NCBI GenBank assembly: GCA_020073215.1
Contig: JAIQFO010000003.1
Span: 1-64,000 of the forward strand
Direction of reading: 5' to 3'
DNA: 64,000 nucleotides
From: Terriglobia bacterium
GTDB lineage: Bacteria; Acidobacteriota; Terriglobia; Terriglobales; Acidobacteriaceae
The notes under the pieces were generated by a model. The model was given only the letters and a program-made list of their open reading frames with translations, ran no database searches and was not told where the DNA came from. Every line of letters begins with the position of its first letter. The first letter of the stretch is position 1. A program made the position numbers and the translations under genes. Shown in pieces: positions 30,984-46,264 of this stretch.

Positions 30984-33440
30984 TCAATGTTGCCTGTGCG
31001 GAGAGTATCCGAATTCGACGATTGCCGACACATTCCGACGCGGCGAATCAAACAGAAGCGGATAGTGGGAGATACGTTCGTATTGCAGTTCGTTGCGGAG
31101 ATACAGGCCTGACTTAAAATACTTGTCGTAGCGAAGCCGGTAGTCGTGCCACGCGCCTCCGCCCGGAATAAAGTCACCGCTCACGGTGTTGTGTTTGTAG
31201 CCGAACTGCAGAGTACTGGCGTCGGAAAACCAGTAGGTCGACCAGCATTGGATAGCACGGCCCATGCGTCCCACGGTATTCCCAATGAGGTTGCCTTCGT
31301 TGGTATAGCCGTCACGATAGGTCTGGTTCCAGTAATTCAGGTTGCCATGGTTCGTGCCGTCAAAGTTGAAAAATCCGGGGGAGGTGGTGTCGGCGGCCTC
31401 GGCATGAAAATCGAGTTTCGGAATTCCCGGAACCCGCGTTAAGTAGATTCCCGGGCGGAAGGGGTTCTTGGGAAGATTCAGGATGGGAAGAGGATCGTCA
31501 TCTGCGTACAGTTCCCCATACAAGACGAGATAGTTTCTAACCTTCGGAACATAAAAGACCCAGTCCATGCTGGTTTGCGTGTTGCCGGGTACCGACCTTC
31601 CGGGTCCCGCCGGTAGCGTGCGTCCAAAGAAGGCATCGAAGAAATTCCGAAAGGTAAGAGGGTCCCCACCCTGGCCGCCAATTTCGATGGTGCGCCCAAA
31701 TCCCAGTTCCAGAAAAGGCAAAGGACGGAAATTGATTTTCTGTCCGAAGATGTAGGGATGAGGAACAAAAGAATGGCCGCGAAGCAGGCCGAAGAACTGC
31801 TCGATGCGCGCTGGTCCCAGGATGGGCAGCTGCAGGTTGGACTTCTCCACCCTCACCATCCGTACTGGATCGATGTTGTCATTCCATACGAGCGAGCCTC
31901 CGGGACCGGGGGCCCAATCCAGGCTCTGCTTGCCCACAGAAACCTGCCATCCCGCCAGATTCAGCCCGACGTACGCGTCTAAAAGGTGGGGGCGATTTAC
32001 AGCGAGAAACGGAATCGCTGGCTGCTTCGGTACGTCATCGCGCAACGCAATTAAGTTTCGCACGGGATCGGACAATGCCGGAGCCGAAGGAGCATGCTGG
32101 AATTCGCTACGTACATATAAGGTCAAGGGGCCGAACGAAGCCCAACTGGCTGCACCGACCTGCAGGTTTGTGCCGCGACGAAACGGGCGCCCAAAGTCGT
32201 CGTCAATGGTTTGTCCAAAGTGATAGCTATCGTTCAAAGGCGGCCCGCTCACGGATACCATTCGCGAGTAGAACGATTCGATGGTCGCAGTGCGGTTGGC
32301 ATTTCCTTCCAGCAATCCGAATTCGTAGGCGAATTCCTGCTCCAGTTGAAGCTCAAGCTTGGCGGCATCCCCGCGACCTTCTTCAAGGTCGATTTTTTCC
32401 TTTGCTTCGCTGACCAGACTTGCGCTTTCCATTCGGGTCCAGGGTTTTGCCCCGAGAAACGCAGTCTTGATATATCCGAGAGCTGCCAGCCTTTCCAATG
32501 CTGGATAGATCCAGCTATCGAGCGGCACGGAAGGTGAGCCCATATGCTGCGGGTTTCTCGGTTCATCCGATTGGTCTGAATCCTCGATGACATTCCCCCA
32601 GGATGAACCGCCCAATTCCGGGTCATGGTGGGCGCGATAAATCTGTCGCCCGAAGTACCAGCCCAGTGCGCTCCCGACGACCACATCCGCGGAAAAGTGC
32701 TGCTTGCCGGTCACGCGTGTCACCGTAACCGCGGAAGCCAGACCATAGGCGGCTAGCTTGGTTAGGGGGCCCGGATATTCATGGGCCAGGACGCTGGCCA
32801 CTGACCAGGCAATCGCGGAATGTTCTGACGGAAACGATGATCCTCCCTGGAAGAAGGTCCCGTTGTGGTCTGCCTCCAGGGGTCGCGGACGTTGCGTAAT
32901 CGCCTTGAACAGAAAAGCGACCGCCGTGCTGTTCACTGCGGCCTCGCCCGCCAGGAATCCACTCTCGCGCATGTGGTCGTTGTGGGTGAGACTTCCCCAG
33001 AGATACGATCCGCCCGCAACTCCCACCAGAGAATAGACTCCGTAATCAGAAATATTCTGGCTCCTTTTGAGCTGAGAAAGGCTGCCTGGAACCTGGCGCG
33101 AAATCCAGCTGTCGCCAGCGATCAGCCCTGCAGTGAAACCGACGAAAGGCACAAGAGCTTTCATGTCTTGCCGATCCGCACGAAAGGGGGAAATCCAGAA
33201 TTGCTTTTGGTCGAGCGCAAGGTGCTTCAACAAAGGCGCGCCCAGTCGGTTCTCCGGATCCTCTCCGGGCGCCAGTCCTGCCGCCTGACCCTCCTTAGAT
33301 GGAGTGTTTTGCATCGTGCCGGAGGAACGCTCAGACGACACTTGCGGGGAAGTCGGCCCCGATGAGGATTCCGAAGCATCCTGGGCTGAAGAGCACTGGA
33401 TGAGCACAACCGTCGCGAGTCCAACAATCCAAAACTTCAC
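30984..33440 (-). CDS. PAP2 phosphatase fused to Wzi-type capsule-assembly barrel
   Basis: This 818-residue exported protein (signal MKFWIVGLATVVLIQCSSA) has two parts. Residues ~90-270 form a PAP2-type phosphatase with all three motifs: K179-x6-R186P187, PSEH (204-207), and R242-x5-H248-x3-D252. From about 310 to the end the sequence looks like the capsule-assembly Wzi beta-barrel (LYVRSEFQHAPS, SVGKQSLDWAPGPGGSLVWN, DWVFYVPKVRNYLVLYGELYADD). PAP2 enzymes remove phosphate from undecaprenyl pyrophosphate or lipids, and Wzi anchors capsule at the outer membrane. The fusion suggests carrier recycling coupled to surface attachment. It overlaps the cytochrome c gene by four bases. Confidence 0.85.
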   Translation of the reverse strand: MKFWIVGLATVVLIQCSSAQDASESSSGPTSPQVSSERSSGTMQNTPSKEGQAAGLAPGEDPENRLGAPLLKHLALDQKQFWISPFRADRQDMKALVPFVGFTAGLIAGDSWISRQVPGSLSQLKRSQNISDYGVYSLVGVAGGSYLWGSLTHNDHMRESGFLAGEAAVNSTAVAFLFKAITQRPRPLEADHNGTFFQGGSSFPSEHSAIAWSVASVLAHEYPGPLTKLAAYGLASAVTVTRVTGKQHFSADVVVGSALGWYFGRQIYRAHHDPELGGSSWGNVIEDSDQSDEPRNPQHMGSPSVPLDSWIYPALERLAALGYIKTAFLGAKPWTRMESASLVSEAKEKIDLEEGRGDAAKLELQLEQEFAYEFGLLEGNANRTATIESFYSRMVSVSGPPLNDSYHFGQTIDDDFGRPFRRGTNLQVGAASWASFGPLTLYVRSEFQHAPSAPALSDPVRNLIALRDDVPKQPAIPFLAVNRPHLLDAYVGLNLAGWQVSVGKQSLDWAPGPGGSLVWNDNIDPVRMVRVEKSNLQLPILGPARIEQFFGLLRGHSFVPHPYIFGQKINFRPLPFLELGFGRTIEIGGQGGDPLTFRNFFDAFFGRTLPAGPGRSVPGNTQTSMDWVFYVPKVRNYLVLYGELYADDDPLPILNLPKNPFRPGIYLTRVPGIPKLDFHAEAADTTSPGFFNFDGTNHGNLNYWNQTYRDGYTNEGNLIGNTVGRMGRAIQCWSTYWFSDASTLQFGYKHNTVSGDFIPGGGAWHDYRLRYDKYFKSGLYLRNELQYERISHYPLLFDSPRRNVSAIVEFGYSPHRQH

Positions 33441-33949
33441 GGCGCCTGCTCAACGTGGAGGCCTTGTGTCGGCTGTTCTGCCGCGGATGCCTTGGGCAGG
33501 GTGCGGACATAAAATGCCAGATCCCAAATATGCTCGTCGGGTTCGACTCGTCCAAAGGCGGGCATGCCACTGAAACGAATGCCGTTCTTGATGATCCAGA
33601 AAACCTCTTGATCGGAGTAGGACTGCGCATCGCTCGACGCCAGATTCGCGGCACGTGGGTACATCCAGCGGCCTGCGTCGGTCGGATTGCGGCCACTCAA
33701 CCCGTGGCAAGCCGCGCATTCCGTGCCGAAAAGCTTTTCGCCTTCCTTGGTGCCAGCCTGTCGGTCGGAGGGTGGCGGCGGAACGCCATGGCCGGTGCTT
33801 CGTTGCACCAGATAGTGCTTCGCCTTAGATACCAGGAACGTTTCCCTTTGTCCTGGTTCCGGGAGTGCACTCAGCGTAAGCCGCGATGCCACGGCGATGG
33901 CGGCGACAAGAACGAACGCACCAATCACCCCTGCAATAGCAAACCTCAT
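33437..33949 (-). CDS. Membrane-anchored cytochrome c
   Basis: The start at 33949 (MRFAIAGVIGAFVLVAAIAVAS) is preferred because it begins directly with a signal/anchor helix; a longer frame starts at 34003. The 170-residue protein has one class I heme site, CAACHG (mid-protein), followed by a distal ligand candidate in FSGMPAFG and a DLAFYVRTLP helix typical of small c-type cytochromes. It should transfer electrons in the periplasm. It is coupled by overlap to the PAP2-Wzi gene, which is unexpected in a polysaccharide cluster, and it may work with the neighbouring DUF5777 barrel. Confidence 0.88.
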   Translation of the reverse strand: MRFAIAGVIGAFVLVAAIAVASRLTLSALPEPGQRETFLVSKAKHYLVQRSTGHGVPPPPSDRQAGTKEGEKLFGTECAACHGLSGRNPTDAGRWMYPRAANLASSDAQSYSDQEVFWIIKNGIRFSGMPAFGRVEPDEHIWDLAFYVRTLPKASAAEQPTQGLHVEQAP

Positions 33950-34034
33950 CGGGGTCTTCTCGACAGAAGAGCCATGGCTTCGAGACAAGAGGGAAAGAGC
34001 CAATCGTGCAGGCCGCCCTTATCAAAATGGAATC

Positions 34035-34412
34035 TTATGAACCTGGTTCGATGTTTGTGATATGAATTTTCTCGCCGGCCTTGTCCAGGGTGCCGGTCAC
34101 CTTCACGTTCTGGCCCGTAAACTGCTTGACCTTGGTCTGGTCGTCCAGTTGATAGACTCTCTTTGAGGCAGCGTCGTACAGCACGTACTTGCCGCCCATC
34201 TTTATACAGGTTTCGGTGCACATCTTCTTGGTCTTGGGGTCGTTTGGATCCATGCCTCCTAAGCCCACCTTCTTCAGCATCCCCGCATGGGAGCCAATCA
34301 TGGCGCACTGGGGGTCCATGATTTCTCCTTTAAACGTTTCACCGTTTGATGCCGCAGAAATCAAGCAACATAGCAGAACAGAACTTACAGATAACAAAAC
34401 ATGCCATTTCAT
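34035..34412 (-). CDS. Small secreted DUF5818-like protein
   Basis: The ATG at 34412 follows GGAGGTAATCGA. The 125-residue product has a signal peptide (KWHVLLSVSSVLLCCLISAAS) and a mature part with Cys residues in MDPQCAMIG and KMCTETCIKMGGKYVLYD. After these comes an OB-like beta segment (VYQLDDQTKVKQFTGQNVKVTGTLD). This pattern resembles the DUF5818 family of small periplasmic proteins. The paired Cys could bind metal or form disulfides. It sits between a cytochrome c and a beta-barrel gene, which suggests an envelope redox group. Confidence 0.7.
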   Translation of the reverse strand: MKWHVLLSVSSVLLCCLISAASNGETFKGEIMDPQCAMIGSHAGMLKKVGLGGMDPNDPKTKKMCTETCIKMGGKYVLYDAASKRVYQLDDQTKVKQFTGQNVKVTGTLDKAGEKIHITNIEPGS

Positions 34413-34502
34413 TCGATTACCTCCGGGCGGACTATCGTGCAAACCTCTGCTCCCTTACTCATCATTGCCCCTTCTGGATCGTGTGTTGACAGGCTCGTAG
34501 TT

Positions 34503-35780
34503 CTAGTAGACCTGCCGAGTGAGATCGAATCCAATAAACACGGCAGATGGCTTGTCGGCGCCCGGTTGTCGGAGAAACGTGGCGTTGGTTCCGGCGCGAT
34601 TGGAAACGATTGTGCCTGGACTGTTGGTGAATCCTAACGTGAATGCGTGTCTCCACAACTTCTTCTGGATGCCAAAGGAGAAGGGGGAACGATGTATCCC
34701 CAGCTCGGGACCATTTACTAAAGTTGGAATAGCCTCCGCCACAAGGGCAACGGTTGGACGAACATCTACCGCGACGGCGACGCCGAGAGAAACGGTATTG
34801 GCGCAAGGATGAACCTTAAACACGGGGTCGATGCCGACTGCGAAGGGAAGGTTACAGTTCTGCTCCGGCATCGGATCCTGCAAAACCGCGCCGGTATTTT
34901 CCAGCAAGGGACGGTTATGAATGGAAAAGGTCGGGACGGCATACAGCTGAGCACGATGACCGAGGCTGCGGGAAAGCGTCAGTTCGAAGTTCTCAGTAAA
35001 GTTGGTGGCAAAATTGTTTTGCCCGTCGACCGAAAATCTCACGGCGGCGTTGAAAGGCTGGTGATCTCTTTCGTCCAGCAAGTTATACGCCACCATAAGT
35101 TCGATTGGCCGCCCGACGAGGCTGGGTGAGCGGTACGCCATGACCGACAACCTCGACGTTACGCCGTACCGAAAACCGAACGAGGACAATGCGAAGTCGT
35201 CCAGACCCAGCAGAGTGTCGCCGCGGCCTGTGCCCTTAAATGCGGGTTCGAATGGGAAACGATGGGTAAAATTGATGTAAAAACCATGGCGGTCAAGGCG
35301 CCGTCCGGTGGGGACGTTGAAGACGAGATCATCTCCCGGCGTATAGATCCGAGCATTCTTCTTTTCACCAAAGGCCGGTGACGGCTGCGCGGTTTGACCT
35401 CCGCCGGCACCGCCCTGAGGAGCAGTCGCTGCGTCCACAGACGAACTCCACCCCGGCCCGGGCGACGGCGTGTTACTCGCCAGGGTCGTATCTGGTACCG
35501 GAGACTGCGACGCTACCACCTCTCGGATCGTATGCGTCGCCACATCCACAATGTATTGGCGGCCGTTACGCTGGATGAGCACTTGGGAGGCCGATCCATC
35601 CACAAATGAAATCCCCAAATCGCCGGCTGCTGTGACCGTCGCAGGCACGTCACCCGCGCCAGAGGGAGATTTACTGGCGCCTTCGCTGGGTCCTTGAGCA
35701 AGCATGAGTTCAGGCAAAGCCAAGCCTGCGATCAGAACAATCAATTTCGACCAGTTACTCAGAAGGTGTTTCCAGCACAT
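34503..35780 (-). CDS. DUF5777-like outer-membrane beta-barrel protein
   Basis: AAGGAGCAAGTCC precedes the ATG. The 425-residue protein has a signal peptide (LIVLIAGLALPELMLAQG), a Gly/Pro-rich linker to about residue 140, and then a beta-barrel rich in aromatic-ending strands: GFYINFTHRFPFEPAF, LGLDDFALSSFGFRYGVTSRLSVM, ending in FIGFDLTRQVY. This matches the DUF5777 family of predicted outer-membrane barrels, which often occur near c-type cytochromes in Acidobacteria and Bacteroidota. Function unknown; an outer-membrane pore or electron-transfer conduit is possible. Confidence 0.72.
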   Translation of the reverse strand: MCWKHLLSNWSKLIVLIAGLALPELMLAQGPSEGASKSPSGAGDVPATVTAAGDLGISFVDGSASQVLIQRNGRQYIVDVATHTIREVVASQSPVPDTTLASNTPSPGPGWSSSVDAATAPQGGAGGGQTAQPSPAFGEKKNARIYTPGDDLVFNVPTGRRLDRHGFYINFTHRFPFEPAFKGTGRGDTLLGLDDFALSSFGFRYGVTSRLSVMAYRSPSLVGRPIELMVAYNLLDERDHQPFNAAVRFSVDGQNNFATNFTENFELTLSRSLGHRAQLYAVPTFSIHNRPLLENTGAVLQDPMPEQNCNLPFAVGIDPVFKVHPCANTVSLGVAVAVDVRPTVALVAEAIPTLVNGPELGIHRSPFSFGIQKKLWRHAFTLGFTNSPGTIVSNRAGTNATFLRQPGADKPSAVFIGFDLTRQVY

Positions 35781-35833: not shown

Positions 35834-36919
35834 TCAAGGTCGAACGTCGCAGTCGCGATTTTCATCACTCGGGTTTCTGCTCCCGTTTTGGGGCGTGTAC
35901 AAAGAACACACGCATCGGCGACAAATCGGATTCGAGTCAATATCGAGATCTTGGCGAAACTGCATTGCCGGGGGGGCATTCAGGATCTCAGTGAGGGTGT
36001 GGTTGTGAATATTCCCCATGGCGGGATGAAAGAAGCACGGGCGAACGTCGCCACTCGCTTCGATCACAGCGGAAGCCCAGGGCGCGTTGCATCGAGGAGC
36101 AACATGCACTGCCAGCCCGAGATGAGCCCGGAAATGCTGCACGATCCGGCGTAGTTTGTCGGGTGCTTCAACAATGAATCCGGAATCGAAGTCATCCCGG
36201 CATTCGACAATCAGCTGCTCCAGTTCGGTGTGCAATGCTTCGACCTCCAGCAAAGTCAACGCAACTTTGTCCTGACGCTCTGCGCTCCACCCCGCAGGGC
36301 GATTGAAAGCGGTGGACGTAACATCCGCTGCCAGGAAGGAAATCGAATTCAGCTCAGCTTCCTTCGCGGCCACTACGGTTGCACGGAGAGTAGTATGGTT
36401 TTCCTTCTGAACAGTGCAACGAGCGCGAACGATCATATGCTGCCGTAACTGTCTTAACGCTTTCACTCCCGCCGCCATTTGTTCGAACGCGTTTGGCACG
36501 CGCCGAATCGCATTGTGCACAGCCGGTGGTCCATCCAAAGAAACGATGATGTCATCCATATTTTCCGTAACGCGCTCGGCTTCTCGTTCCAACAAAAGCC
36601 CAGCGGTCAGCAGGGTCACGCGGATTCCCGCGTCGCGCAGCATGCGCGCCAGTAAATACCACTGGCGATTCATCTGGGGCTCGCCTCCGGAAAAGACCAC
36701 CCATTGAACTCCTAGGTCGCGCAGCGAGCGAAGTTGATAGACCAGATCTTGAGGTGTGATTTCCTGGGCCTCACGAATTCTCCAAATGTCACACATCGCA
36801 CATCGGCAGTTGCACTGGTTATGCGGGAAGATCACCAGCACTGGCAGCAAGTGGATTTGATGATCGACCACCGCCCCATCACGGACCGCCGAGTTCAGGT
36901 TTGAAGGAAGTCCACTCAC
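35834..36919 (-). CDS. Radical SAM/SPASM domain protein
   Basis: This 361-residue protein has the radical SAM CX3CX2C cluster motif (C36, C40, C43 in QCNCRCAMCDIW), the GGEPQMN motif after strand 2, and a Cys-rich SPASM-type C-terminus (CNAPWASAVIEASGDVRPCFF and CRRCVC). SPASM proteins modify peptides or act as sulfatase-maturating enzymes and carry extra FeS clusters. The GTG start overlaps the methyltransferase stop (GTGA). No small precursor-peptide gene is visible nearby, so the substrate may be a sugar, a lipid or a protein of the EPS machinery. Confidence 0.88.
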   Translation of the reverse strand: MSGLPSNLNSAVRDGAVVDHQIHLLPVLVIFPHNQCNCRCAMCDIWRIREAQEITPQDLVYQLRSLRDLGVQWVVFSGGEPQMNRQWYLLARMLRDAGIRVTLLTAGLLLEREAERVTENMDDIIVSLDGPPAVHNAIRRVPNAFEQMAAGVKALRQLRQHMIVRARCTVQKENHTTLRATVVAAKEAELNSISFLAADVTSTAFNRPAGWSAERQDKVALTLLEVEALHTELEQLIVECRDDFDSGFIVEAPDKLRRIVQHFRAHLGLAVHVAPRCNAPWASAVIEASGDVRPCFFHPAMGNIHNHTLTEILNAPPAMQFRQDLDIDSNPICRRCVCSLYTPQNGSRNPSDENRDCDVRP

Positions 36920-37746
36920 TGGATATCACCAGCTTCCATCGTTCGCTCGAAGATCAGCAGGACGTGATCGGCCAAACCGCGAGCGATCGGAACGTTTTCT
37001 AAAAGCGCATCTGCGCCCATCATCCACCGAACACACCAGGGATGCCGATTCACAATGCTTTCGAGGTAACTCGGCGGGATGGTGATACCAATTCCCTTCC
37101 AAGTTTCTAAGTGGAACTCGGGTGAAAACTGGCGGATTACTGAATTCACCGAAGGATAGTGAACGCGCACCGTCGCTTCGGGCGCTAATCGAGCAATAAT
37201 CTTTCCACGACCGATCCGACGAAAGGCCTTCTGTGGATCTCCATGTGCCAGATACCAAGCCAACTCCCAAGCGCAGTGGCGGCCCATCAAACAAAGCATG
37301 GCCGGCGCACCTGGCCTCAGTAAGCGGGCGAGATTGATCGCCACGCCTCTCAGATCCTCAACGCAGTTAAGCGCGCCGAAGTTCGAGAAAGCCCCGTCAA
37401 AACCCGGCTCGCCTCCTAAACCAGCCAAGTCTTCGGCCGCCAGTGTTCGCAAATGCACAAAGCTGCTCTGATTCGCCTGCGTAATTCTCCGATTCGCAAC
37501 CTCGATCATGGCGCGCGAGTTATCACATGCAAGGACTCTGATGCCGCGGTTGGCTAGGAAACACGCATCTACCCCTGTGCCACAGCCGATTTCGAGGATC
37601 CGGTCTCCCAATCGAAATGTCTTTGCCAGTTCTTTCCAAACGGATGCGCGCTGCGCCCGGCCAATTTGTGACTCGGTAAATTTGCGGTCGTACTCTTCCG
37701 CAACTGTGTCGAACGGAGCTGAATAGGTTTGCGATGCGGTCGCCAT
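36916..37746 (-). CDS. SAM-dependent class I methyltransferase
   Basis: This 276-residue enzyme has a clear SAM-binding site (DRILEIGCGTGVDACFLANRG, then VLACDNSRAMIEVA and the acidic AAEDLAGLG). The mid-part LLRPGAPAMLCLMG is typical of UbiE-like methyltransferases. It is flanked by overlapping radical SAM genes on both sides (TGATG with the upstream gene, GTGA with the downstream one), so the three are almost certainly made together. It may O- or C-methylate the product of those radical SAM enzymes. Confidence 0.9.
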   Translation of the reverse strand: MATASQTYSAPFDTVAEEYDRKFTESQIGRAQRASVWKELAKTFRLGDRILEIGCGTGVDACFLANRGIRVLACDNSRAMIEVANRRITQANQSSFVHLRTLAAEDLAGLGGEPGFDGAFSNFGALNCVEDLRGVAINLARLLRPGAPAMLCLMGRHCAWELAWYLAHGDPQKAFRRIGRGKIIARLAPEATVRVHYPSVNSVIRQFSPEFHLETWKGIGITIPPSYLESIVNRHPWCVRWMMGADALLENVPIARGLADHVLLIFERTMEAGDIQ

Positions 37747-39140
37747 CAGGCTTCAACCTCGGTGGCGCTGGCGATCAAGCTGGCGCGGAAATCCGTAACT
37801 TTGCCTTGCAGCTCCGCGACAGTCAAAAGGTCCGTGTCGGGTTTGCTGCGTACTTTCTCAAGTTCTACTTCGGTCCGCAGCAACTTATCCGCAAACCCGT
37901 AGAAGCGCCGCGAGTGCCGGCCACGAATCCGGATCTCTCTGTCCGAACCCACGCTCCACACTTTCAGGGGTTCAACTCGACCATCTACTTCGCTAAAATA
38001 TGGAGTTCCTTTAATTGGGTAAGCGACGGTTGTGAAGAAGATATCGGGATCGGTTTTCTTCACATGCTGGATGGTTGCCTCAATGTCCTGGAGTTCTTCT
38101 CCCTCATAGCCCCACATAAGAAACATCCCGGATTGAATTCCACGCGCTCTGCACAGGGCGACTGCCGTCTGAACCTGTTCGACGGTCACGCCGCGCTCCA
38201 TCGCGTCCAAAATGCGTTGCGAGCCACTCTCAGAACCAATCCACAGGCGAAAGCATCCGATGTCGGAGAGCGTATCGATAACCGCAGGGGTGAGCCGATC
38301 AGCCCGCGAGATGCACTCAAAAGGCAACTTCAACCCGCGACGCTTTAGTTCGCCGGCGTATTGGAACAACCATCCGGGGTGGATCGTGAAAACATCATCG
38401 GCCATCCACGCCATGTCAGGGTGGTAGCGGTTGATCAGCCACTCCAGTTCATCGGCGACTAGAGCCGGTTTGCGGCGACGATGGGTCTTGCCAAATACCT
38501 CGTGGCTGCACCACCGGCAATGGTACGGACATCCGCGAGCGGTGATGAGGGACACCGATCCCATACCGTGGTGCTTGCGCCACACGGAAACATACTCGTC
38601 CACGTCGATAAGGTCGCGCGCCGGCCATGGTTGTGCGTCGATGTCGCGGATTTGCCCTCGCGGCTTGGTCCGGATGACAGTCCCGTTTGCGTCGCGAAAG
38701 GCAATCCCGTCCACGTTATGGAGGGCAGGCGCTGCCCGTGATTGGAGAATGGGAACCAACTCCTCGAGTGTGAGTTCGCCCTCGCCAGTCACGACGACAT
38801 CAGCACCGGCTTCCAGGTACTCATTCACATATGCACCGGGCTCAGGCCCGCCAACCACCGTTTGCCATCCCGCGTCCTTCGCGACACGAAGAATCTCGAC
38901 GACGTTGGGCCTGGTCATCAAATTGGCGTAAATACCAACGATCGAGGGACGACTTCCTTGCAAGATGCTGAACAGTTTTTCTCGAGAGCTAAATGTGGAA
39001 TCGAACACTTCCGCGTCGATGCCCTTGTTGCGAAGGTGGGCACAGATGTAAAGGATCCCCAAAGGAGGATAGGGCTTCATAATCTGAAGCTCTTTCGGAT
39101 CCTCGTAGAGGAAATATCCGTGAGTGAGAAGTATGTCCAT
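37746..39140 (-). CDS. B12-binding-type radical SAM protein (first of a tandem trio)
   Basis: The ATG at 39140 is preferred over an upstream TTG; it gives 464 residues. The N-terminal ~140 residues form a B12-binding-type alpha/beta domain (VLLTHGYF-like start, YPPLGILYICAHLRNKGIDAEVFD, GADVVVTGEGELTLEELV). The radical SAM barrel follows with CX3CX2C (C204, C208, C211 in ARGCPYHCRWC). The Asp-x-His-x-x-Gly cobalamin ligand motif is not evident. Its stop overlaps the methyltransferase start. Proteins of this class methylate unreactive carbons or remodel lipids and sugars; the substrate is unknown here. Confidence 0.9.
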   Translation of the reverse strand: MDILLTHGYFLYEDPKELQIMKPYPPLGILYICAHLRNKGIDAEVFDSTFSSREKLFSILQGSRPSIVGIYANLMTRPNVVEILRVAKDAGWQTVVGGPEPGAYVNEYLEAGADVVVTGEGELTLEELVPILQSRAAPALHNVDGIAFRDANGTVIRTKPRGQIRDIDAQPWPARDLIDVDEYVSVWRKHHGMGSVSLITARGCPYHCRWCSHEVFGKTHRRRKPALVADELEWLINRYHPDMAWMADDVFTIHPGWLFQYAGELKRRGLKLPFECISRADRLTPAVIDTLSDIGCFRLWIGSESGSQRILDAMERGVTVEQVQTAVALCRARGIQSGMFLMWGYEGEELQDIEATIQHVKKTDPDIFFTTVAYPIKGTPYFSEVDGRVEPLKVWSVGSDREIRIRGRHSRRFYGFADKLLRTEVELEKVRSKPDTDLLTVAELQGKVTDFRASLIASATEVEA

Positions 39141-39208
39141 GCGAGAAGATAAGATCAGCAAAAGTTGAATCGGCAATCCACGAAGCGACGCTGCGATTCG
39201 CCATCACT

Positions 39209-40678
39209 TCATGTCGACACCTCTAGTTGGACCAGGCGCGGCTCGGCAAGGTCAGGCAGCACGGTGGGGTGAGGGTTGCGACATGTTTTCTCAAGTTCTT
39301 CCACCCTGCGCCACAATGCTTCTGCCATTCCGATACCGCCGTTTGACGACTTCCAGCATTCAACCTGGGCATGCAAGGCATCGTGCAAGGCACGATAGAA
39401 CTCGTCGTTGTAAGCTCCCTGAAACATCATTGCGAGATCCTCACTATCGGACCAGTTCGTCTTCTCGCCCAGTTGGGCCTGCACCCGCTCATAAAACTTT
39501 GTTCCGGGCAGCGGATACGAAACCGACACTCCTATGTCATCAGGGCGTGTGGCGCGAATTACGGCAGCGGTTTTCTGAATGTCTTCCCAAGTTTCCCCCG
39601 GGTATCCGAACTGCAGGAAGTAGCAGGCGCGAATGCCCTGCTCACGAAGGTTGTGCCGTGCTTTGGCAATCTGCTCGACGCGGGTTCCCTTATCCATGGC
39701 GTCGAGAATTTTCTGAGAGCCCGACTCCACACCCATCCATACTTCGGCGCAGCCAGCGCGTCGCAAAGCAGATACGGTATCGGCCGTCATGAGGTCGATT
39801 CGACTTTGCATTTTGAAAGGGAGTGCGGCATCGAGCCTCTCGACGTGGGCCGCGAGTTCGGCAACCCATTTGGCTTTAAGCCCAAAAATGTCATCCGCAA
39901 ACCAGAGATGCTCAGCGTCAAACTCGCACTTGAGTTGCCGCATCTCTTCCGCCACGCGCAGCGGCGAGCGCAGGGCAAACGCACTCCCATAGATCGGTTT
40001 CGCGCACCAGTTGCAGCTGTAAGGACAACCCCGGCTCGAGACAATGTTCAAAGAAAAGAACCCGTGGGCGTCTCTCCACGCGGCGCGGTACCGGCTAATA
40101 TCGACGAGATCTCGTGCCGGGAAGGGCAGAAGGTCCAGATTGCGCATTAAAGGCCGGGCCGGCGTGCGCACAACTTCTCCGGTTTGCGGGTGGAGATATG
40201 CGACGCCAGAAATGCGGCTTGGGTCGAACTCCCTGGTATTCCATAGTTGCTGGACGGCTTCCAGCAACGTCCATTCCGCTTCGCCGAGCAGAACGCAGCT
40301 GAAACCTTCCCGCAGATAATTTCGCGCATGATCGCAAGCGTCCGAGCCGTTGATCAGAACCGTGGCGCCGGCCCGTTGCGAGGCGTGCCCGATCCCATAG
40401 GCCAGCTCTCGCATCCGCGTGAGGCACATCTTCGACAGGAAGTTGAAATTGTCCTCATACACCACAACAACGCGCGGCCGATGCCGTTCGAGGGCGCACT
40501 CAAACTCTGCCTCGGGGTTGCTCAGCATCGTGTCGAAGACCTCAACCGACAAGCCTGCGTCGCGCAGGAGAGCAGCGGCGTACAACGTGCCGAGTGGAGG
40601 ATAAGGCTGCATTTTCCGCGTCTGCTTGCGATCGTAGTACAAGTGATATGAGTGTGTCAGAAGAACATCCGCCACCAA
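39209..40678 (-). CDS. B12-binding-type radical SAM protein (second of trio)
   Basis: This 489-residue protein has the same architecture as its neighbour at 37746-39140: a B12-binding-type N-terminal domain (YPPLGTLYAAALLRDAGLSVEVFD) and a radical SAM barrel with C218, C222, C225 in SRGCPYSCNWC. It also shares the SGSQKILDAM and FGYPGETWEDI motifs of the group. The two are clearly paralogous but diverged, consistent with different substrates or successive steps. It lies 28 bases after the third member of the trio. Confidence 0.9.
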   Translation of the reverse strand: MVADVLLTHSYHLYYDRKQTRKMQPYPPLGTLYAAALLRDAGLSVEVFDTMLSNPEAEFECALERHRPRVVVVYEDNFNFLSKMCLTRMRELAYGIGHASQRAGATVLINGSDACDHARNYLREGFSCVLLGEAEWTLLEAVQQLWNTREFDPSRISGVAYLHPQTGEVVRTPARPLMRNLDLLPFPARDLVDISRYRAAWRDAHGFFSLNIVSSRGCPYSCNWCAKPIYGSAFALRSPLRVAEEMRQLKCEFDAEHLWFADDIFGLKAKWVAELAAHVERLDAALPFKMQSRIDLMTADTVSALRRAGCAEVWMGVESGSQKILDAMDKGTRVEQIAKARHNLREQGIRACYFLQFGYPGETWEDIQKTAAVIRATRPDDIGVSVSYPLPGTKFYERVQAQLGEKTNWSDSEDLAMMFQGAYNDEFYRALHDALHAQVECWKSSNGGIGMAEALWRRVEELEKTCRNPHPTVLPDLAEPRLVQLEVST

Positions 40679-40706
40679 ATGCCTCCTCTCCGACGAAAGT
40701 GAACGA

Positions 40707-42203
40707 TCAGCAGGCTTGCTGCATGCCTTCCTTTAACTTCTGACCGGTCAGCAGAGACCGGCGCGTAACTACTTTTTCCACGGCACGCGATGCCCAAAGT
40801 TCCCAGGGGAATGAATAGTGATTCTTGCGGATGCGCCAACGTATAGGAACGCCCAGGGCTCGCCGCACCCCTCGGCGCAGCCACGGTACTTGTTTGCTAG
40901 CCTTTCGGATTTGGTTATTGAGCAGAAAGTATTCGAGGCTGCGGCGCAGCCGTCGCAGTTCCTCTCCCTGCAACCAAGGGAGCACATTGCGTCCCAGGCC
41001 AAGGCTTTCCCACTCTGCCAGGGACTGCGGTTCCCGCACGCCCAGCTTCCTAAGCTCGGGCCAAATTGGGATCCCGGGGTACGGAGTGAAGATATTCGGA
41101 GAAAAAGTCACGTTCCAATACTGTCTGGCGATATCGCTCATAAATCGAAACGTCTGTTGGCGATCGGCTTCCGTCTCTCCCGGGTAGCCAAGAATTATGT
41201 TGAAGACAATATGAATGCCCGCCAAATCCGCTTTGCGCGCGGTTTCCACCATTTGCTCCACATGTTGGAAACGTTTGTTCATTAAGTACAACACTTGCTG
41301 CGACGCCGACTCGGTGCCAAAGCCGATGTGGTGGACACCACTCTCAGCCAGCAAGCACACTTCTTCGTCCGTCATCGTGGCCAGAAAGTCTGTGGAGGTC
41401 TGGAAGTCCCAACGAAACTTCACCCCGCTGGCGATGATGCCGCGAGCAATTGCGACGGCACGCTTTCTGTCCACCAGGAAATTGGAATCGAAGAGGGGAA
41501 CATGTTCTATGTTGTAGCGAGGCACAAGATCGGTGAGGTCCGCCACCACACGTTCCGGGCGATAAGCATTGAAGCGCCTCTTGTAAAACACCTGGTCGGT
41601 ACAGTAGTTACACTGGTAAGGACAACCCACGCTGGTGGTGTATGCCAGTTGCCTGAGGCCAGATTCTTTCGCGTACATACCCGGATCGCCAAGGTGATAG
41701 GCAGGCGGAGGCAGGTCGTTGATATTGGCCACGGGTCGCTCTGGCTCGTGGTGAATTCTGCCATCCTCCTTGAAAGACACTCCCCGCACACCGTGCCAGT
41801 CCTGTTGTTGCGCTATTCGCTGAACCAGTTCGAGGAAAGTGATTTCGCCCTGGCCCCTTACGATTGCGTCCACGAAGGCCTCGCGGAGCGTCTGCTCGGT
41901 CGCGAGGGTCGGATGCCAGCCACCGAGTACGATCGGCACATCCGGGCGACACTTTTTGACGGCTGAGGCGACACGGATCGCAGCTCCGATATGCGGCCCC
42001 GTAAGCACGGAAATCCCCAGACAAATCGCATCTTCGACTTCCTGTAGGATTGCAGTCTGGTAATCGGGCGCAATGAGATTGTCGACCAGCTTGACTTGAA
42101 ATCCTGCCTCGAGCAGAGGACCTGCCAACGCAAGCAGCGAAAGCGGCGCCCCTAATGGGGGCCCCTCATACGGGGGATAGAAGAGCACCACTTTGTCTTT
42201 CAT
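40707..42203 (-). CDS. B12-binding-type radical SAM protein (third of trio)
   Basis: This 498-residue protein starts MKDKVVLFYPPYEGPPLGAP, a typical opening of B12-binding radical SAM enzymes. It has GGWHPTL and VRGQGEITFLELV in the first domain and C194, C198, C201 in SVGCPYQCNYC. ILGYPGETEADRQ and the C-terminal helical extension with several Arg-rich segments resemble class B radical SAM methyltransferases. It is the first gene of the run that continues through the other two radical SAM genes, the methyltransferase and the SPASM protein. It resembles the fourth copy (60728-62191) in its FYxP opening. Confidence 0.9.
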   Translation of the reverse strand: MKDKVVLFYPPYEGPPLGAPLSLLALAGPLLEAGFQVKLVDNLIAPDYQTAILQEVEDAICLGISVLTGPHIGAAIRVASAVKKCRPDVPIVLGGWHPTLATEQTLREAFVDAIVRGQGEITFLELVQRIAQQQDWHGVRGVSFKEDGRIHHEPERPVANINDLPPPAYHLGDPGMYAKESGLRQLAYTTSVGCPYQCNYCTDQVFYKRRFNAYRPERVVADLTDLVPRYNIEHVPLFDSNFLVDRKRAVAIARGIIASGVKFRWDFQTSTDFLATMTDEEVCLLAESGVHHIGFGTESASQQVLYLMNKRFQHVEQMVETARKADLAGIHIVFNIILGYPGETEADRQQTFRFMSDIARQYWNVTFSPNIFTPYPGIPIWPELRKLGVREPQSLAEWESLGLGRNVLPWLQGEELRRLRRSLEYFLLNNQIRKASKQVPWLRRGVRRALGVPIRWRIRKNHYSFPWELWASRAVEKVVTRRSLLTGQKLKEGMQQAC

Positions 42204-42390: not shown

Positions 42391-44544
42391 TTACTGGGGC
42401 AGAGACACATTCGCAATGGCGCTAAGCCCCACTCCGCGGCCGCAATCCGTCGCGTACAACAAACTCTGCGCACTCTGCCAGGAGGGAGAGATCGCATTGC
42501 AGGACCCATGCGTGATTTGCCGCTCCACTCCATTCGTGAGTTCACGCACGGCCAAATGCCACGATCCATGGTCACGCCGGCTGAACGCTATCCGCTTGCC
42601 GTCCGGCGATATCGAGGGATACCTCGCGGGTTCGGGAAACCCCGGTAGCAGCGTCACTTGTTGTGTCAGTCGCCGCACTAGAACCAGATGGGGATCACTC
42701 ACCTCACCAACGGAAGCGATCACGTCGCCTTCAGATGTAACGCTCACATCGATTGGATGGTAAGCGGCTGGTAATAGCATTTGCGGAGTCGTTGCCGTAG
42801 AGTCAGTGGGCAACAGCCAGGCCGCGCTGCCTTCTCCCGTTTCCTGTATAAACACGAGCCATTTCCCATTCGGTGACAGTGCAGGCTCCTGGCCTTCGCT
42901 CACAAGTTTTGGAGCGGAATCCAATCGGTCTGTTGGGACTCGCACGATGAATGACTGGGTACCAGTCAGCTCCGCGTAGAGTGCGGTGCTGACCGGAGAT
43001 CCAGCGACCGCGAGCACATCGCCCGGCATCCCTAACTCTCTGAACTCTCCATCTCTCAGCAGTACAGCGCTATAGCCATGTCGTTGCATCTCGGTAAAAG
43101 CGATGCCGCCCGCAACTGGAACGGGGTTGCCAGCCCGGTACCCGTTCCGGGGGCCCGGCAACCGGCTGGCGAAATCCTCGCTTCGGTTCTGCACGGCGTA
43201 GAGATTAAGCGCCGTGAGTAAGCCGAAACAAACCACCGAAGCGGCTAACCAACGTTGTTTAAATTGCAATCTGCGCCCGGATCGCGCGACCGTAAACAAA
43301 AGAATGCAGAGGCAGGTCATAGCCAGTAGCCGAACCGGAATCCTCTGCGAGATCCTATCCGGTATGGGCGCGCAACTAGCCACATAGAGCGCCAGAAAGG
43401 TAAGTGCCTTGTGCCTCTCACCCATCGTCAGCAGCGCATCGACGCCAACGATCGCCGCAAGGATCAGTACGCACGGATGATCAATGCCCGTGGTCGTGGA
43501 AAAGAGGAGCAGCAACGGAATCAGAGCTGCCCACTGCAGAGCGGTGGATTGCCGCGTATCATTCCGGTCGAGGGACATCAAGAATCCAAACAACAACCCA
43601 GTGGTTGTAATTGCCTCCATCAGTGCAAAGAGCAGGGGCGAATCGAGCAAGGGCGAAGGATTCAATTCCGGTTCGATGAGGAACAAATGACTCCAGAGAG
43701 TGATGTAGGTATTTCGTGGAAGATAATAGGGTCCAAGCCAATCGCCGCGAGAGACCTGGCTGAGAACTTCGACAACAAATAGCCGGTGAACTTCTACGCC
43801 AAACACAAGGAGCGAAATGCCAACAAAGACTGCCGCGCCCATAAGAAAACCCACGAGGGCCCGCCAGTTTCTCTTCCAAACGATCAGAATCACAAACAAA
43901 GCGGGAAACAGCTTGAGCATAGCCGCTGCCGACAGCAACAGCCCAGAGCTCCATTCGGCGCCATGATAAGAGGCATAGTAGGCCGCGGTGAGTAGCAACA
44001 AGATGAGCACATAATATCTGCCGTACATGAATGTGAAATGGAGTGGCAGAACGCACAACAGCGATATCAGAAGAAGGCGACGCCAGCCCAGCGATGTCAC
44101 ACGGCTTAACAACCAGAGCGATGCCCCCAGACAGACCAAATTCATGGCCAGCCATACACGTTTGGCAGTAAGCGGAGATAGCGCCGTCAATGGCACCAGC
44201 GGCAGGACCGACGAAGGGGGATTCGGCGCAAAACTCACGAGGCCATCGCTCACACCTAAATGGTCATTCTGCCGTTGGAACCACGGCCATTCATAGACAC
44301 GTTCAACCGGAATGCCGTGACGAGGAAGCGCGGCCGCAAGATAGTAATCTGGGAACTCGCCCCGCAAACTCGACCAACCTTGCAGATAGCTATTCTTCAA
44401 CAGTGAGATCAACAGGAACGCGATCAGTATCCACTCGAAAGGGCGCAAAAGCCTGGACCATGTACTTCCCGACAGTACTCGAATGGAACGCAAATCTTCG
44501 CTCGGGGCGGCGTCGGCTCCGGTATCTATGTCAACTATAGCCAT
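42391..44544 (-). CDS. GT87-like membrane glycosyltransferase fused to a TolB-like propeller
   Basis: This 717-residue protein has a multi-span membrane part to about residue 440 (WILIAFLLISLLKNSYLQGW..., VLPLHFTFMYGRYYVLILLLL). It resembles GT87/DUF2029-type mannosyltransferases that use polyprenyl-phosphate sugars. A soluble C-terminal region (about 460-717) has WD40/TolB-like repeats such as EPALSPNGKWLVFIQETGEGSAAWL and YPSISPDGKRIAFSRRDHGSWHLAVREL. The fusion is unusual. The membrane half may add a sugar outside the cytoplasm and the propeller may hold the polymer or a partner. Both assignments are by general resemblance. Confidence 0.72.
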   Translation of the reverse strand: MAIVDIDTGADAAPSEDLRSIRVLSGSTWSRLLRPFEWILIAFLLISLLKNSYLQGWSSLRGEFPDYYLAAALPRHGIPVERVYEWPWFQRQNDHLGVSDGLVSFAPNPPSSVLPLVPLTALSPLTAKRVWLAMNLVCLGASLWLLSRVTSLGWRRLLLISLLCVLPLHFTFMYGRYYVLILLLLTAAYYASYHGAEWSSGLLLSAAAMLKLFPALFVILIVWKRNWRALVGFLMGAAVFVGISLLVFGVEVHRLFVVEVLSQVSRGDWLGPYYLPRNTYITLWSHLFLIEPELNPSPLLDSPLLFALMEAITTTGLLFGFLMSLDRNDTRQSTALQWAALIPLLLLFSTTTGIDHPCVLILAAIVGVDALLTMGERHKALTFLALYVASCAPIPDRISQRIPVRLLAMTCLCILLFTVARSGRRLQFKQRWLAASVVCFGLLTALNLYAVQNRSEDFASRLPGPRNGYRAGNPVPVAGGIAFTEMQRHGYSAVLLRDGEFRELGMPGDVLAVAGSPVSTALYAELTGTQSFIVRVPTDRLDSAPKLVSEGQEPALSPNGKWLVFIQETGEGSAAWLLPTDSTATTPQMLLPAAYHPIDVSVTSEGDVIASVGEVSDPHLVLVRRLTQQVTLLPGFPEPARYPSISPDGKRIAFSRRDHGSWHLAVRELTNGVERQITHGSCNAISPSWQSAQSLLYATDCGRGVGLSAIANVSLPQ

Positions 44545-44589: not shown

Positions 44590-45264
44590 TCAATAGATTC
44601 CAGGAAGAATTCTTGCTGTCTTGTGTGAGTACGCCTCATATGTAGTTCCAAAGACTGACTGTAGGTGCGCTTCCTCGATTGCGATTTTTCGCATCAGGAG
44701 GTATGCCCACGCTGCCGCCAACGCCCAACCCACGATGCTGGCAAACACCAGCGCCACGGCCACCTTCGAGACTATCGCAGCCGCGTATCGGGGATGCCGC
44801 ACGTACCGAAACGGACCGTGCTCCATTGGGACGGGCTCGGTATGGTTTTGACCGAAATATGTCGCCAAGCAAGTGTCGGTCCAGATTTGCCAGGTTGTAC
44901 TGACTATATAAAGCGCCAACCCCAGTCTCTGAAGTAATGGCTGCTCTAACCCACTCACCAAATGCCAGTGCGCATAATCAAGGAAGACGGCTAGATCAGC
45001 CGCCATAAGAAACATCACCTGAACGGGCCCAGAGGGATCCGAATCAAGTGCCCACCACTGCCGCATGGCACGCTTCGAGCGAAATACTGCCCGACTCGAA
45101 ATTAGTGAATGAAGTGAACCCAGCAGCCTTATGCATAAGTAGGTAACCGAGTAACGGTCCAGGCGCGCCAGAGGAGTTGAACTTCCCCACCCCACCAGAC
45201 AGAACAGAGACAGCGCCAAGTAGCCTAGCGAAAACGTCAGGGTCGTCCAAAACGCTTTATTCAT
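44590..45264 (-). CDS. Isoprenylcysteine/phospholipid-methyltransferase-like (ICMT) membrane protein
   Basis: The ATG at 45264 overlaps the HprK-like gene by eight bases; an upstream in-frame start lies far inside that gene. The 224-residue protein has about five membrane helices and an ICMT-type C-terminal motif: GPFRYVRHPRYAAAIVSKVAVAL, then a Glu pair in IAIEEAHLQSVFGTTYEAY. Such integral methyltransferases use SAM on lipid-like or thiol substrates. Its coupling to the HprK-like kinase hints that both act on the same lipid-linked or protein substrate. Confidence 0.78.
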   Translation of the reverse strand: MNKAFWTTLTFSLGYLALSLFCLVGWGSSTPLARLDRYSVTYLCIRLLGSLHSLISSRAVFRSKRAMRQWWALDSDPSGPVQVMFLMAADLAVFLDYAHWHLVSGLEQPLLQRLGLALYIVSTTWQIWTDTCLATYFGQNHTEPVPMEHGPFRYVRHPRYAAAIVSKVAVALVFASIVGWALAAAWAYLLMRKIAIEEAHLQSVFGTTYEAYSHKTARILPGIY

Positions 45265-46264
45265 GGTCCGCGAGTAACTTTCGCATGAACCGTGCAACCA
45301 CAGAAGGGTCCCCGTCACACAGGAGTTGGTAAGCTGGCAGGCTCTCGAGAAGGCGGAAAGCCGTAGCTCGCTCCTTGACAAAGCGATCGTCGTCCTTAAA
45401 CAGCACATTTTCTGCGATTCGTCCAGGCAACTCGGCCCGCGGGATCTGCGACAGGGTCAGCCGCGCGCCAGCGCGCCTCTCGAGAAACACGCAGCCAACC
45501 GGGATCACGGAGCGCACTTGCGTCGCTTGAAAGTGATGCTTTTCCAAATGGTGAAAAGTGAAGTGGCAATAAGAGAACGGGCGCGCCGATTTCCGGAGCT
45601 CCGGAAAGAATTGCAGTGCGTCAGGACGGAAAGCGGCCGGCCAAAAACCACCCCAGACCCGCACGGCGTCCCCTTCGATTTCCCCAAACACTCCCTCGTC
45701 GGCGTAGAATCCGAGGCCAAGTTTTGTCGTTAGGTAGCTGGCCGTTGTCTTGCCACTGTTATGTGGGCCAAACACGAGAAGGCCATTATCCCCCAGCGAA
45801 ACACAGTTTGCCCGCAACGAAATCAGTCCCAGACTGCCTGCCGTCATGCAAAACAGGTTGTCGAGAAATGGGCTGGTGAATCCAAGCTCGTCCTCAGCCA
45901 GGCCCTCGGCGATGAACGCAATTGCTTCACGCGCCTCCAGGTCGACCGCCAGAAAATTCCGCTGTCCGAACTCGGCATAACGAAGTCCGTGGTCTGAAAA
46001 CGCCGACCTCCTGGGCCAAGGCGGGCGCATTGCGACATCGGATTGGCTTACGATCCTCCAGAGGAATTGCGGCTGTCCGTATGGCGAGCCCGGATAACGT
46101 GCGAACAGTTCCTCAGCATGCGCAAGAATTTTCTGGCTGTTGCTCTCCAGCCGCACCGTGCGCCCCATTACAGGCAAAGCAGTGGCATACGGAGTGGGCG
46201 TAAAGCGGCGCAGATGATCTTGGCGTTCTATCTCCGGGTAGGCAGATCTGAAAGCGTACGACAT
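45257..46264 (-). CDS. HPr-kinase-like P-loop protein (first of two)
   Basis: This 335-residue protein has a central HprK-like core with a Walker A loop FGPHNSGKTT (about 165-174). The neighbouring strand FYADEGVFG stands where HPr kinases have a D-D pair. The rest lacks the HPr-binding C-terminus, so it is unlikely to phosphorylate HPr. Related HprK-like proteins are found in polysaccharide and peptide-modification clusters of several phyla and have no settled role. It is coupled to the ICMT-like gene. The loop differs from its neighbour (HNSGKTT against SGSGKST). Confidence 0.78.
   Translation of the reverse strand: MSYAFRSAYPEIERQDHLRRFTPTPYATALPVMGRTVRLESNSQKILAHAEELFARYPGSPYGQPQFLWRIVSQSDVAMRPPWPRRSAFSDHGLRYAEFGQRNFLAVDLEAREAIAFIAEGLAEDELGFTSPFLDNLFCMTAGSLGLISLRANCVSLGDNGLLVFGPHNSGKTTASYLTTKLGLGFYADEGVFGEIEGDAVRVWGGFWPAAFRPDALQFFPELRKSARPFSYCHFTFHHLEKHHFQATQVRSVIPVGCVFLERRAGARLTLSQIPRAELPGRIAENVLFKDDDRFVKERATAFRLLESLPAYQLLCDGDPSVVARFMRKLLADHE

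Follow-up and report, generated by a model that had tools for sequence, protein, structure and literature searches.

The stretch of DNA analyzed here, called the window, comprises 64,000 nucleotides from a Terriglobia bacterium (contig JAIQFO010000003.1 of assembly GCA_020073215.1, positions 1 to 64,000). Inside its exopolysaccharide (EPS) cluster, five co-directional genes at 35834-42203 encode three B12-type radical S-adenosylmethionine (SAM) proteins, a methyltransferase, and a SPASM radical SAM protein. We found that these genes belong to a larger, conserved, and patchily distributed set. The multi-enzyme pathway itself is well supported, and it is apparently undescribed. In the reading that we favor, held tentatively and at slightly below even chances, the pathway makes a SAM-tailored, phosphorylated, and glycosylated product that is exported and works with electron carriers of the envelope; we infer both the substrate and the redox role.

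Five intact genes belong to a larger set

The five genes are real, intact, and co-directional, all on the minus strand. R1 (40707-42203, 498 amino acids) carries Pfam B12-binding and Radical_SAM domains at 63.1 and 64.6 bits, and its close relatives in the gene tree are found in Acidobacteriota. The same two domains are present in R2 (39209-40678, 489 amino acids), the core B12-type radical SAM protein, where the B12-binding domain is barely above the Pfam cut-off (32.6 vs 32.1 bits), and in R3 (37746-39176, 476 amino acids, with a later start likely). They are followed by MT, a class I methyltransferase by Pfam (36916-37746, 276 amino acids), and by the SPASM protein (35834-36919, 361 amino acids; Pfam Radical_SAM and SPASM domains). 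The R3 stop overlaps the MT start by 1 base, and the MT stop overlaps the SPASM start by 4 bases. These coordinates agree with an earlier reading of the letters alone (the sequence-only reading), which had described three adjacent B12-type proteins with intact CX3CX2C motifs, co-directional with a methyltransferase and a SPASM protein, the last three genes overlapping.

The CX3CX2C motif is kept in all aligned relatives of the B12-type proteins (22/22 for R1, 44/44 for R2, 26/26 for R3, and 25/25 for R4, described below; 117/117 in total) and in 18/19 SPASM relatives, using a regular expression confined to the first 80 residues. A DxHxxG motif occurs in the first 170 residues of 0/117 aligned R1-R4 proteins. 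Given the motif together with a Pfam B12-binding domain, R1-R4 and a further protein, R1p, are predicted to be cobalamin-dependent radical SAM enzymes.

The extent originally drawn, 35834-42203, holds only in part: the five genes are there, but the set is larger and takes in R4, MT2, R1p, an NTP_transf_5 protein, and, in other genomes, an amidohydrolase. R4, a B12-type radical SAM protein by Pfam (60728-62191, plus strand, 487 amino acids), lies at the far end of the EPS cluster, next to MT2, a second class I methyltransferase by domain and homology searches (62188-62979, plus strand, 263 amino acids from the called start). Past base 64000, the contig encodes R1p, the fifth B12-type radical SAM protein (G000:C5:64034-65545), and the NTP_transf_5 protein (Pfam match at G000:C5:65711-66502, reading frame to about 66898), which scores 128 bits (92.8 from a shorter called start) against a PF14907 gathering cut-off of 31.2. 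Relatives of these four proteins belong to one syntenic set elsewhere. Two HprK-like proteins lie on the minus strand within the window: HprKb (45257-46264), a P-loop protein with the Walker A motif GPHNSGKT and no Pfam or NCBIfam match, and the kinase HprKa (46352-47347), with GPSGSGKS. Both therefore carry the Walker A motif of HprK-like P-loop kinases.

The set is kept together across six phyla

Using R2 as the query, we fetched 44 loci (L numbers; genomes carry G numbers) and mapped their gene content by homology-guided gene calls. The loci span Acidobacteriota, Actinomycetota, Chloroflexota, Bacteroidota, Pseudomonadota, and Bacillota; several are short contigs, and missing genes are partly due to truncation. 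The controls were 36 windows of 20 kb from nine R2-carrying genomes. Window-derived queries matched MT in 36/44 R2 loci, R4 in 25, R3 in 24, SPASM in 19, R1 in 17, MT2 in 16, and GT87 in 5, each against 0/36 controls. EPS genes, searched with the window's proteins and one Bacteroidota EPS protein, were likewise found in 10/44 loci and 0/36 controls. For the remaining counts, some queries were drawn from these same loci: an NTP_transf_5-like nucleotidyltransferase (NTase-like) in 25/44, the amidohydrolase in 16/44, HprK in 13/44, and family 4 glycosyltransferases (GT4) in 13/44, each against 0/36 controls, and the MT5/6 methyltransferases in 6/44 against 1/36. The NTase-like count includes the putative nucleotidyltransferases U309/U320 from Chloroflexota and Bacteroidota; excluding these two phyla, such genes are found in 3/5 AcidoA loci, 1/2 other Acidobacteriota, 7/7 Actinomycetota, 3/6 Sphingomonadaceae, and 2/3 Gammaproteobacteria, and homology queries matched none in Terriglobus-like, Nitrospirillum-type, or Bacillota loci. 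U309/U320 share only a GS...DxD-like motif and have no Pfam or NCBIfam match; their kinship to NTP_transf_5 is unsupported, with a profile comparison giving 3.7% probability.

The recurrent core is R2 with MT, often accompanied by an HprK-like kinase and an NTP_transf_5 protein, and it is extended by R1, R3, R4, SPASM, the amidohydrolase, and extra methyltransferases. Terriglobus-type Acidobacteriota have, in order, R1-like, R1, R2, R3, MT, R4, an MT2-amidohydrolase fusion, and SPASM, so that R4 is contiguous with R1-R2-R3-MT; the fusion is a single open reading frame (ORF) of 629-650 amino acids in L010, L011, L018, L067, and L073, all Acidobacteriota. Nitrospirillum has R2, R3, MT, R4, SPASM, and a further methyltransferase, with the amidohydrolase on the opposite strand. 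The Sphingomonas loci (L037-L039) have R2, MT, an additional methyltransferase, R4, MT2, and the amidohydrolase, placed back to back with two GT4 genes and one for an HprK-like kinase, and in Actinomycetota the order is HprK, GT4, NTP_transf_5, GT4, R2, and MT (the last in 5/7). The window differs from these arrangements in having R4 and MT2 at the opposite end of the EPS cluster.

The gene tree separates R2 (44 rows, SH-aLRT 99), its sister clade R3 (26 rows, 98), and R4 (99); R1 includes one stray long branch. Pairwise identities correlate with those of R2 for R3 (Spearman 0.73), R4 (0.72), MT (0.38), and SPASM (0.37), and for each of the four, 0/999 permutations gave a correlation as high. 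Altogether, the set is kept together in other genomes; had it not been, this would have counted against the sequence-only reading.

Across the phylum, R2 matched 41/396 sampled genomes at 1e-80 or better, which identity divides into 36 R2 carriers and 5 genomes with R3 only; in 28/36 carriers, an R3-type match accompanies R2 on its contig, no more than about 4 kb away. None of 23 same-genus genomes matched R2 at 1e-40. The distribution is therefore patchy, and the set has probably spread horizontally. A search for plasmid copies gave one record, at 28.3% identity, and was not taken further as an explanation.

The radical SAM proteins score below curated family cut-offs

The sequence-only reading would have been undermined had these proteins fallen into well-known families with unrelated substrates. 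Yet no radical SAM protein of the set reached any NCBIfam cut-off, either among the best 25 models considered for each of R1, R2, R3, and SPASM or for R4 and R1p, and we reject the known families as the identity of the set. For HpnJ (TIGR03471, cut-off 577.6), R1, R2, R3, R4, and R1p scored 105.0, 131.7, 109.2, 100.9, and 102.6 bits, respectively; in the same order, the scores were 92.6, 71.8, 90.7, 72.4, and 77.6 bits for HpnR (TIGR04367, cut-off 650), 138.6, 106.2, 156.0, 115.3, and 119.1 bits for BchE (TIGR02026, cut-off 481.35), and 104.1, 75.5, 69.4, 90.5, and 65.6 bits for the radical SAM C-methyltransferase (TIGR03975, cut-off 281.85) that acts on ribosomally synthesized and post-translationally modified peptides (RiPPs). 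The SPASM protein scored 75.4 bits against the BlsE-type model (TIGR04466, cut-off 400). Among the best 25 models per protein, none bears the name HpnP, Tes, or GenK.

An AF2 model of R2 (pLDDT 86.8) places an alpha/beta N-terminal domain ahead of the radical SAM barrel, and its fold matches are MgmA (9ccb), TsrM, and AprD4, which are the nearest, and CysS, OxsB, and TokK. R2 may be a methylase or a dehydratase-type enzyme, between which the modeled fold does not decide.

Kinase, nucleotidyltransferase, and deaminase-like partners

HprKa and HprKb have matches as an adjacent pair in the genomes of L004, L005, L007, and L008, which supports a tie between the set and the HprK-like pair. HprKa-type matches are present in 15/22 carrier genomes searched, some far from R2, and NTP_transf_5 in 17/22. 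The distance from NTP_transf_5 to R2 is about 7 kb or less in L004, L007, Xanthomonas L030, Sphingomonas L037, L047, L013, and L017, and genes for both HprK and NTP_transf_5 neighbor R2 in Actinomycetota, Sphingomonas, Xanthomonas, a gammaproteobacterium, and Acidobacteriota.

The amidohydrolase keeps its NxHxH and CPxSN motifs in 16/16 aligned rows (one locus entered twice). Since its relatives are deaminases of S-adenosylhomocysteine (SAH)/methylthioadenosine, guanine, 8-oxoguanine, and 5'-deoxyadenosine, its role may be either to act on the product or to remove by-products of SAM.

Minimal clusters in G129, G209, and G435 consist of NTP_transf_5, MT, GTP cyclohydrolase II, R2, a methyltransferase, the amidohydrolase, a GT1 glycosyltransferase, GT87, and HprK. 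The presence of GTP cyclohydrolase II hints at a GTP-derived scaffold in this minimal variant only. Other matches to this enzyme number two in G209 and G435 and three in G129, and the cluster copy of G209 (L084 9837-10436) has one internal TAG, unlike those of G129 and G435. The larger-cluster genomes G446, G374, G428, and G318 have two matches each; the window's genome has four, none of them in this cluster.

Redox genes recur beside the set

In the window, three minus-strand genes run on in the direction of SPASM over 33437-35780, starting 53 bases past it: a DUF5777 barrel-type protein (34503-35780; PF19089, 51.1 bits, cut-off 23.1), a DUF5818-like protein (34035-34442; PF19135, 25.2 bits, under the cut-off of 27), and a cytochrome c with one CxxCH (33437-34003; PF13442, 48.0 bits). 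The bounds first drawn stopped short of this run, and the sequence-only reading overlooked the link to cytochromes, cupredoxins, and outer-membrane barrels. Relatives of the window's cytochrome adjoin HprK/NTP_transf_5 in L068, L073, and L083.

A diheme cytochrome is found by SPASM in L004-L007, as is a single-heme protein of 447-449 amino acids in L004-L008 (cut by the contig end in L006). An MtrB/PioB porin and a decaheme cytochrome stand beside the set in Nitrospirillum L028 and alphaproteobacterium L036; the porin also occurs in L032, L033, L035, and L026, whose available locus sequence contains no decaheme gene, and L035 and L026 exceed the PF11854 cut-off at 269.9 and 366.7 bits. The window itself lacks this porin. 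Single-heme proteins lie about 17-26 kb from R2 in Xanthomonas L030 and gammaproteobacterium L047, and a cupredoxin is present in 5/6 Sphingomonadaceae loci. Counted per row (6 to 66 kb of DNA each), redox genes occur in 13/15 Pseudomonadota and 14/29 Acidobacteriota rows (one genome in two rows), and these counts are descriptive because the barrel and cupredoxin hidden Markov models were built from the same loci.

Three less biased tests were a secreted-ORF control, genome-wide cupredoxin distances, and a comparison of carriers with non-carriers. Secreted ORFs with CxxCH or a Cu site numbered 11 in 405 kb around R2, against 0 in 720 kb of control DNA, a control count lower than expected; the Cu-site expression was written after seeing examples. 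Such an ORF lies near R2 in 7/9 test genomes, with none in G318 or G428. Pfam cupredoxins are rarer than PF13442 cytochromes (0-8 per genome) and lie within 25 kb of R2 in 5/10 genomes; G401, G061, and G071 do not fit this pattern. In the window's family, a query consisting of one cupredoxin from these loci matched 17/18 sampled R2 carriers and 11/26 non-carriers (Fisher p 0.0004, without kinship correction), and the match lies within 27 kb of R2 in 14 of the 17 carriers that have it. Outside this family, many R2-less genomes match, and 20/48 matching genomes belong to other families.

In G318, the cupredoxin is 267 kb from R2. Its neighborhood was predicted before the neighbors were read, and the prediction held: NTP_transf_5, a barrel-type protein, SLBB, GNVR, Wzx, and Wzy are its neighbors, and HprKb is no more than 8 kb away. 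The cupredoxin of Terriglobus albidus (G066) likewise has NTP_transf_5, a barrel-type protein, SLBB, GNVR, and Wzx next to it, and HprKb no more than 8 kb away. In both genomes, the radical SAM genes lie elsewhere. The kinase, NTP_transf_5, EPS, and cupredoxin genes of Acidobacteriota of this type therefore seem to form one unit, with the radical SAM block as its partner.

Other neighbors and the search for a precursor peptide

Several further minus-strand genes surround the set in the window. Upstream of R1 are a GT87 membrane glycosyltransferase with a C-terminal PD40 repeat (42391-44544; Pfam), which recurs in L004, L005, L007, L008, and L018, and a PEMT/ICMT-type membrane methyltransferase (44590-45408; Pfam) with a homologue in L005, whose ORF start overlaps HprKb and whose true start is probably later. 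The EPS genes include a bacterial sugar transferase, probably initiating (29405-30889; PF02397, 210.9 bits), a PAP2 phosphatase fused to a Wzi capsule-assembly barrel in a single 818-amino-acid ORF (30984-33440), a GNVR chain-length protein, Wzx-type flippase, and Wzy-type polymerase (51900-55889), and an SLBB/Poly_export outer-membrane export protein (55895-59323), the last three entries by Pfam. A NusG-family protein, perhaps a specialized antiterminator, adjoins the SLBB export gene (59392-59958), and L068 has a similar gene. Two regulator-like genes, at 60049-60459 and 63220-63888, flank R4-MT2; one encodes a LuxR-type response regulator, and the other is a 136-amino-acid ORF that has no Pfam match and is receiver-domain-like by eye; similar genes are found in L089 and L109.

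We searched for a precursor peptide among ORFs of 22-150 amino acids in intergenic space, compared within seven clades, where the window's HprK region has no counterpart. No convincing precursor gene was found in the compared loci, and the short ORFs are frame-broken or overlapping. Those common to three or more loci lie in the gaps upstream of R4 in AcidoA and between HprK and R2, upstream of R2, in Sphingomonas; on alignment, indels break their frames, and conservation in the AcidoA gap centers on a TTTGACA promoter-like stretch. Other shared short ORFs were rejected as lying outside the sets, on the opposite strand, or in near-identical genomes. PqqD, lasso peptidase, and cyclase families are absent from the Pfam-scanned window proteins. 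The earlier judgment that a peptide product is unlikely thus stands.

The same genome has two further loci of a related kind. L054 2321-8479 (G000:C81, about 57.3-63.5 kb) encodes a SPASM radical SAM protein, PqqD, an HprK-like protein, a 60-amino-acid ORF, an ABC-type ATPase, and NTP_transf_5, and looks like an HprK/PqqD RiPP-type cluster separate from the window set. L055 5323-9962 (G000:C60, about 10.3-15.0 kb) has a 67-amino-acid ORF, HprK-like and PqqD-like proteins by eye, and NTP_transf_5 matches.

Proposed pathway and alternatives

In the favored reading, the HprK-like kinase would phosphorylate a sugar- or nucleoside-like acceptor at a hydroxyl, and the NTP_transf_5 protein would transfer a hexosyl or nucleotidyl group onto that phosphate. 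We propose this step by comparison with the kinase/nucleotidyltransferase pair reported for pseudomycoidin (PMC9266682). The radical SAM enzymes and methyltransferases would introduce C-, O-, or N-modifications, the amidohydrolase would deaminate an intermediate or spent SAM products, and GT4/GT87 enzymes would glycosylate. Export would use the EPS machinery, or perhaps the ABC transporter in Sphingomonas. In Acidobacteriota and Pseudomonadota, the product probably works with the neighboring outer-membrane barrel, cytochrome c, or cupredoxin. The earlier claim of a multi-step system tied to EPS genes and the HprK-like pair, matching no named one in the searches made, is upheld.

Several observations weigh against this reading. 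EPS genes are found in only 10/44 R2 loci, and the EPS/NTP_transf_5 block is apart from R2 in G066 (on another contig) and in G318. HprK_rel_A (TIGR04352, cut-off 200) is not reached, with HprKa at 56.4 bits and HprKb without a match. Redox genes occur in 0/17 loci of Actinomycetota, Chloroflexota, Bacteroidota, and Bacillota; given this and the mere 14/29 Acidobacteriota rows, they are outside the core. With 6-39 PF13442 matches per genome, a lone nearby cytochrome counts for little, and the cupredoxin query matched nothing in the genome of the window itself. The partial circularity of the HprK, NTase, amidohydrolase, GT4, and MT5/6 queries also counts here, as does the fact that same-family genomes are not independent. 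Finally, since none of the 23 same-genus genomes matched R2 at 1e-40, some genes might be adjacent because they were inserted together in an island.

The most parsimonious rival is ordinary tailoring of an EPS sugar, in which the enzymes make an unusual NDP- or lipid-linked sugar (C-methylated, deoxygenated, epimerized, or decarboxylated) and the redox neighbors are incidental. It is a serious alternative that we regard as somewhat unlikely. The window set does lie inside an SLBB/GNVR/Wzx/Wzy/glycosyltransferase cluster, and the solved relatives of R2, R3, R4, and SPASM (AprD4 and a cytosylglucuronate decarboxylase, compared below) fit such chemistry. However, the EPS queries used matched no assembly gene in 16 loci of Actinomycetota, Sphingomonadaceae, and Chloroflexota, the complement of six radical SAM enzymes, three methyltransferases, and a kinase pair, with a deaminase in other genomes, is large for a single sugar, and the redox link recurs and passed the prediction test in G318. 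The product could instead be a free, exported, non-polymeric small molecule, nucleoside-, pteridine-, or pyrimidine-like, with the EPS genes as mere neighbors. GTP cyclohydrolase II between MT and R2 in G129, G209, and G435, beside other genome copies, points this way, as do the amidohydrolase's resemblance to guanine, 8-oxoguanine, and SAH deaminases, the GT1-type glycosyltransferase, and the ABC transporter gene in Sphingomonas. Yet that cyclohydrolase is confined to three genomes of one family, one copy having an internal stop, and EPS genes accompany 6/6 Nitrospirillum-type and 3/6 Bacteroidota loci and stand beside NTP_transf_5 in several Acidobacteriota, so that we consider a free product unlikely.

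Modification of a membrane lipid or lipid carrier (hopanoid, ether lipid, or polyprenyl phosphate) seems to us very improbable: the weak resemblance to HpnJ, HpnR, and ladderane-lipid radical SAM models, and the nearby ICMT/PEMT-type methyltransferase and GT87, are offset by scores far under curated cut-offs (101-132 bits vs 577.6 for HpnJ) and by the absence of hopanoid-synthesis families among the Pfam-scanned window proteins, lipid genes having been sought in the window only. Least credible of all is a RiPP, in which the enzymes would modify a ribosomal peptide and the kinase and NTP_transf_5 would act on Ser as in lasso peptides. Such a kinase/nucleotidyltransferase pair is reported to act on lasso peptides (PMC9266682), the genome has L054, and short ORFs are shared by at least three loci upstream of R4 and R2; the broken frames, the promoter-like conservation, and the lack of PqqD, peptidase, and cyclase families among the scanned window proteins argue against it.

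A more novel reading is that the product serves as a previously undescribed redox mediator. Its redox-active group, GTP-derived (flavin- or pteridine-like) or of another kind, would be tailored by the B12-type radical SAM enzymes and the methyltransferases and would then carry a phosphate and sugars. Bound to EPS or released through it, the mediator would pass electrons between the cell's surroundings and periplasmic cytochrome c, a CuA-type cupredoxin, or outer-membrane conduits of the MtrAB/Cyc2-like kind. We regard this reading as distinctly doubtful.

The literature searched held no description of such a system, although the sensitivity of that search was probably limited, as zero matches for a Pfam accession suggest. 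The finding matters as a multi-enzyme biosynthetic system in six phyla, including the cultured soil bacteria Terriglobus albidus, Nitrospirillum, and Sphingomonas; as those searches gave no description of it, a direct search for its product is possible. If the redox link is true, radical SAM biosynthesis and exopolysaccharide export would be joined to electron transfer across the envelope, and some of the extracellular electron transfer of Acidobacteriota and Alphaproteobacteria would gain a chemical explanation.

Comparison with known systems

Among electron conduits, MtrAB/PioAB is represented by the MtrB/PioB porin and decaheme cytochrome that adjoin the set in two alphaproteobacterial genomes. 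The single-heme proteins with a similar N-terminus found in Acidobacteriota, Xanthomonas, and a gammaproteobacterium (one CxxCH, 447-454 amino acids, no Pfam match in the two scanned) may be Cyc2-like, judging from an N-terminal motif. We know of no MtrAB/PioAB or Cyc2-like conduit with such a pathway, and the literature search found none described together with one.

HpnJ gives the best NCBIfam model of R2, but R2 falls far short of its cut-off, and the Pfam-scanned window proteins include no hopanoid-synthesis family. AprD4, the radical SAM diol dehydratase of apramycin, is the best solved sequence relative of R2 and R4 and the second-best of R3, and its fold is similar to the R2 model; it differs in gene context and in its NCBIfam scores (R1 70.0, R2 83.1, R3 61.8, and R4 54.2 bits vs a cut-off of 500). 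MgmA, the Mcr glutamine C-methyltransferase, is the first fold match of the R2 model (TM 0.62/0.71, 20% identity), but it acts on protein, and R2 scores 89.9 bits against 360 for TIGR04014. BlsE, the cytosylglucuronate decarboxylase, is the best solved relative of SPASM (2.2e-17), with the match confined to SPASM residues 34-179 and a score well under the cut-off.

The closest parallel for the kinase and NTP_transf_5 is the PsmK/PsmN pair of pseudomycoidin, of which PsmK is presumably HprK-like and PsmN, we assume, a member of PF14907. There, the kinase is reported to phosphorylate the C-terminal Ser of a lasso peptide and the nucleotidyltransferase homologue to add one or two hexoses to it, a host glycosyltransferase not being excluded (PMC9266682). 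Shared with the present set are a kinase and a nucleotidyltransferase homologue, which in pseudomycoidin act on a hydroxyl and then on the phosphate (PMC9266682). The two differ in that the Psm substrate is a lasso peptide, whereas here no peptide is seen and the pair is joined by B12-type radical SAM proteins and by EPS or redox genes.

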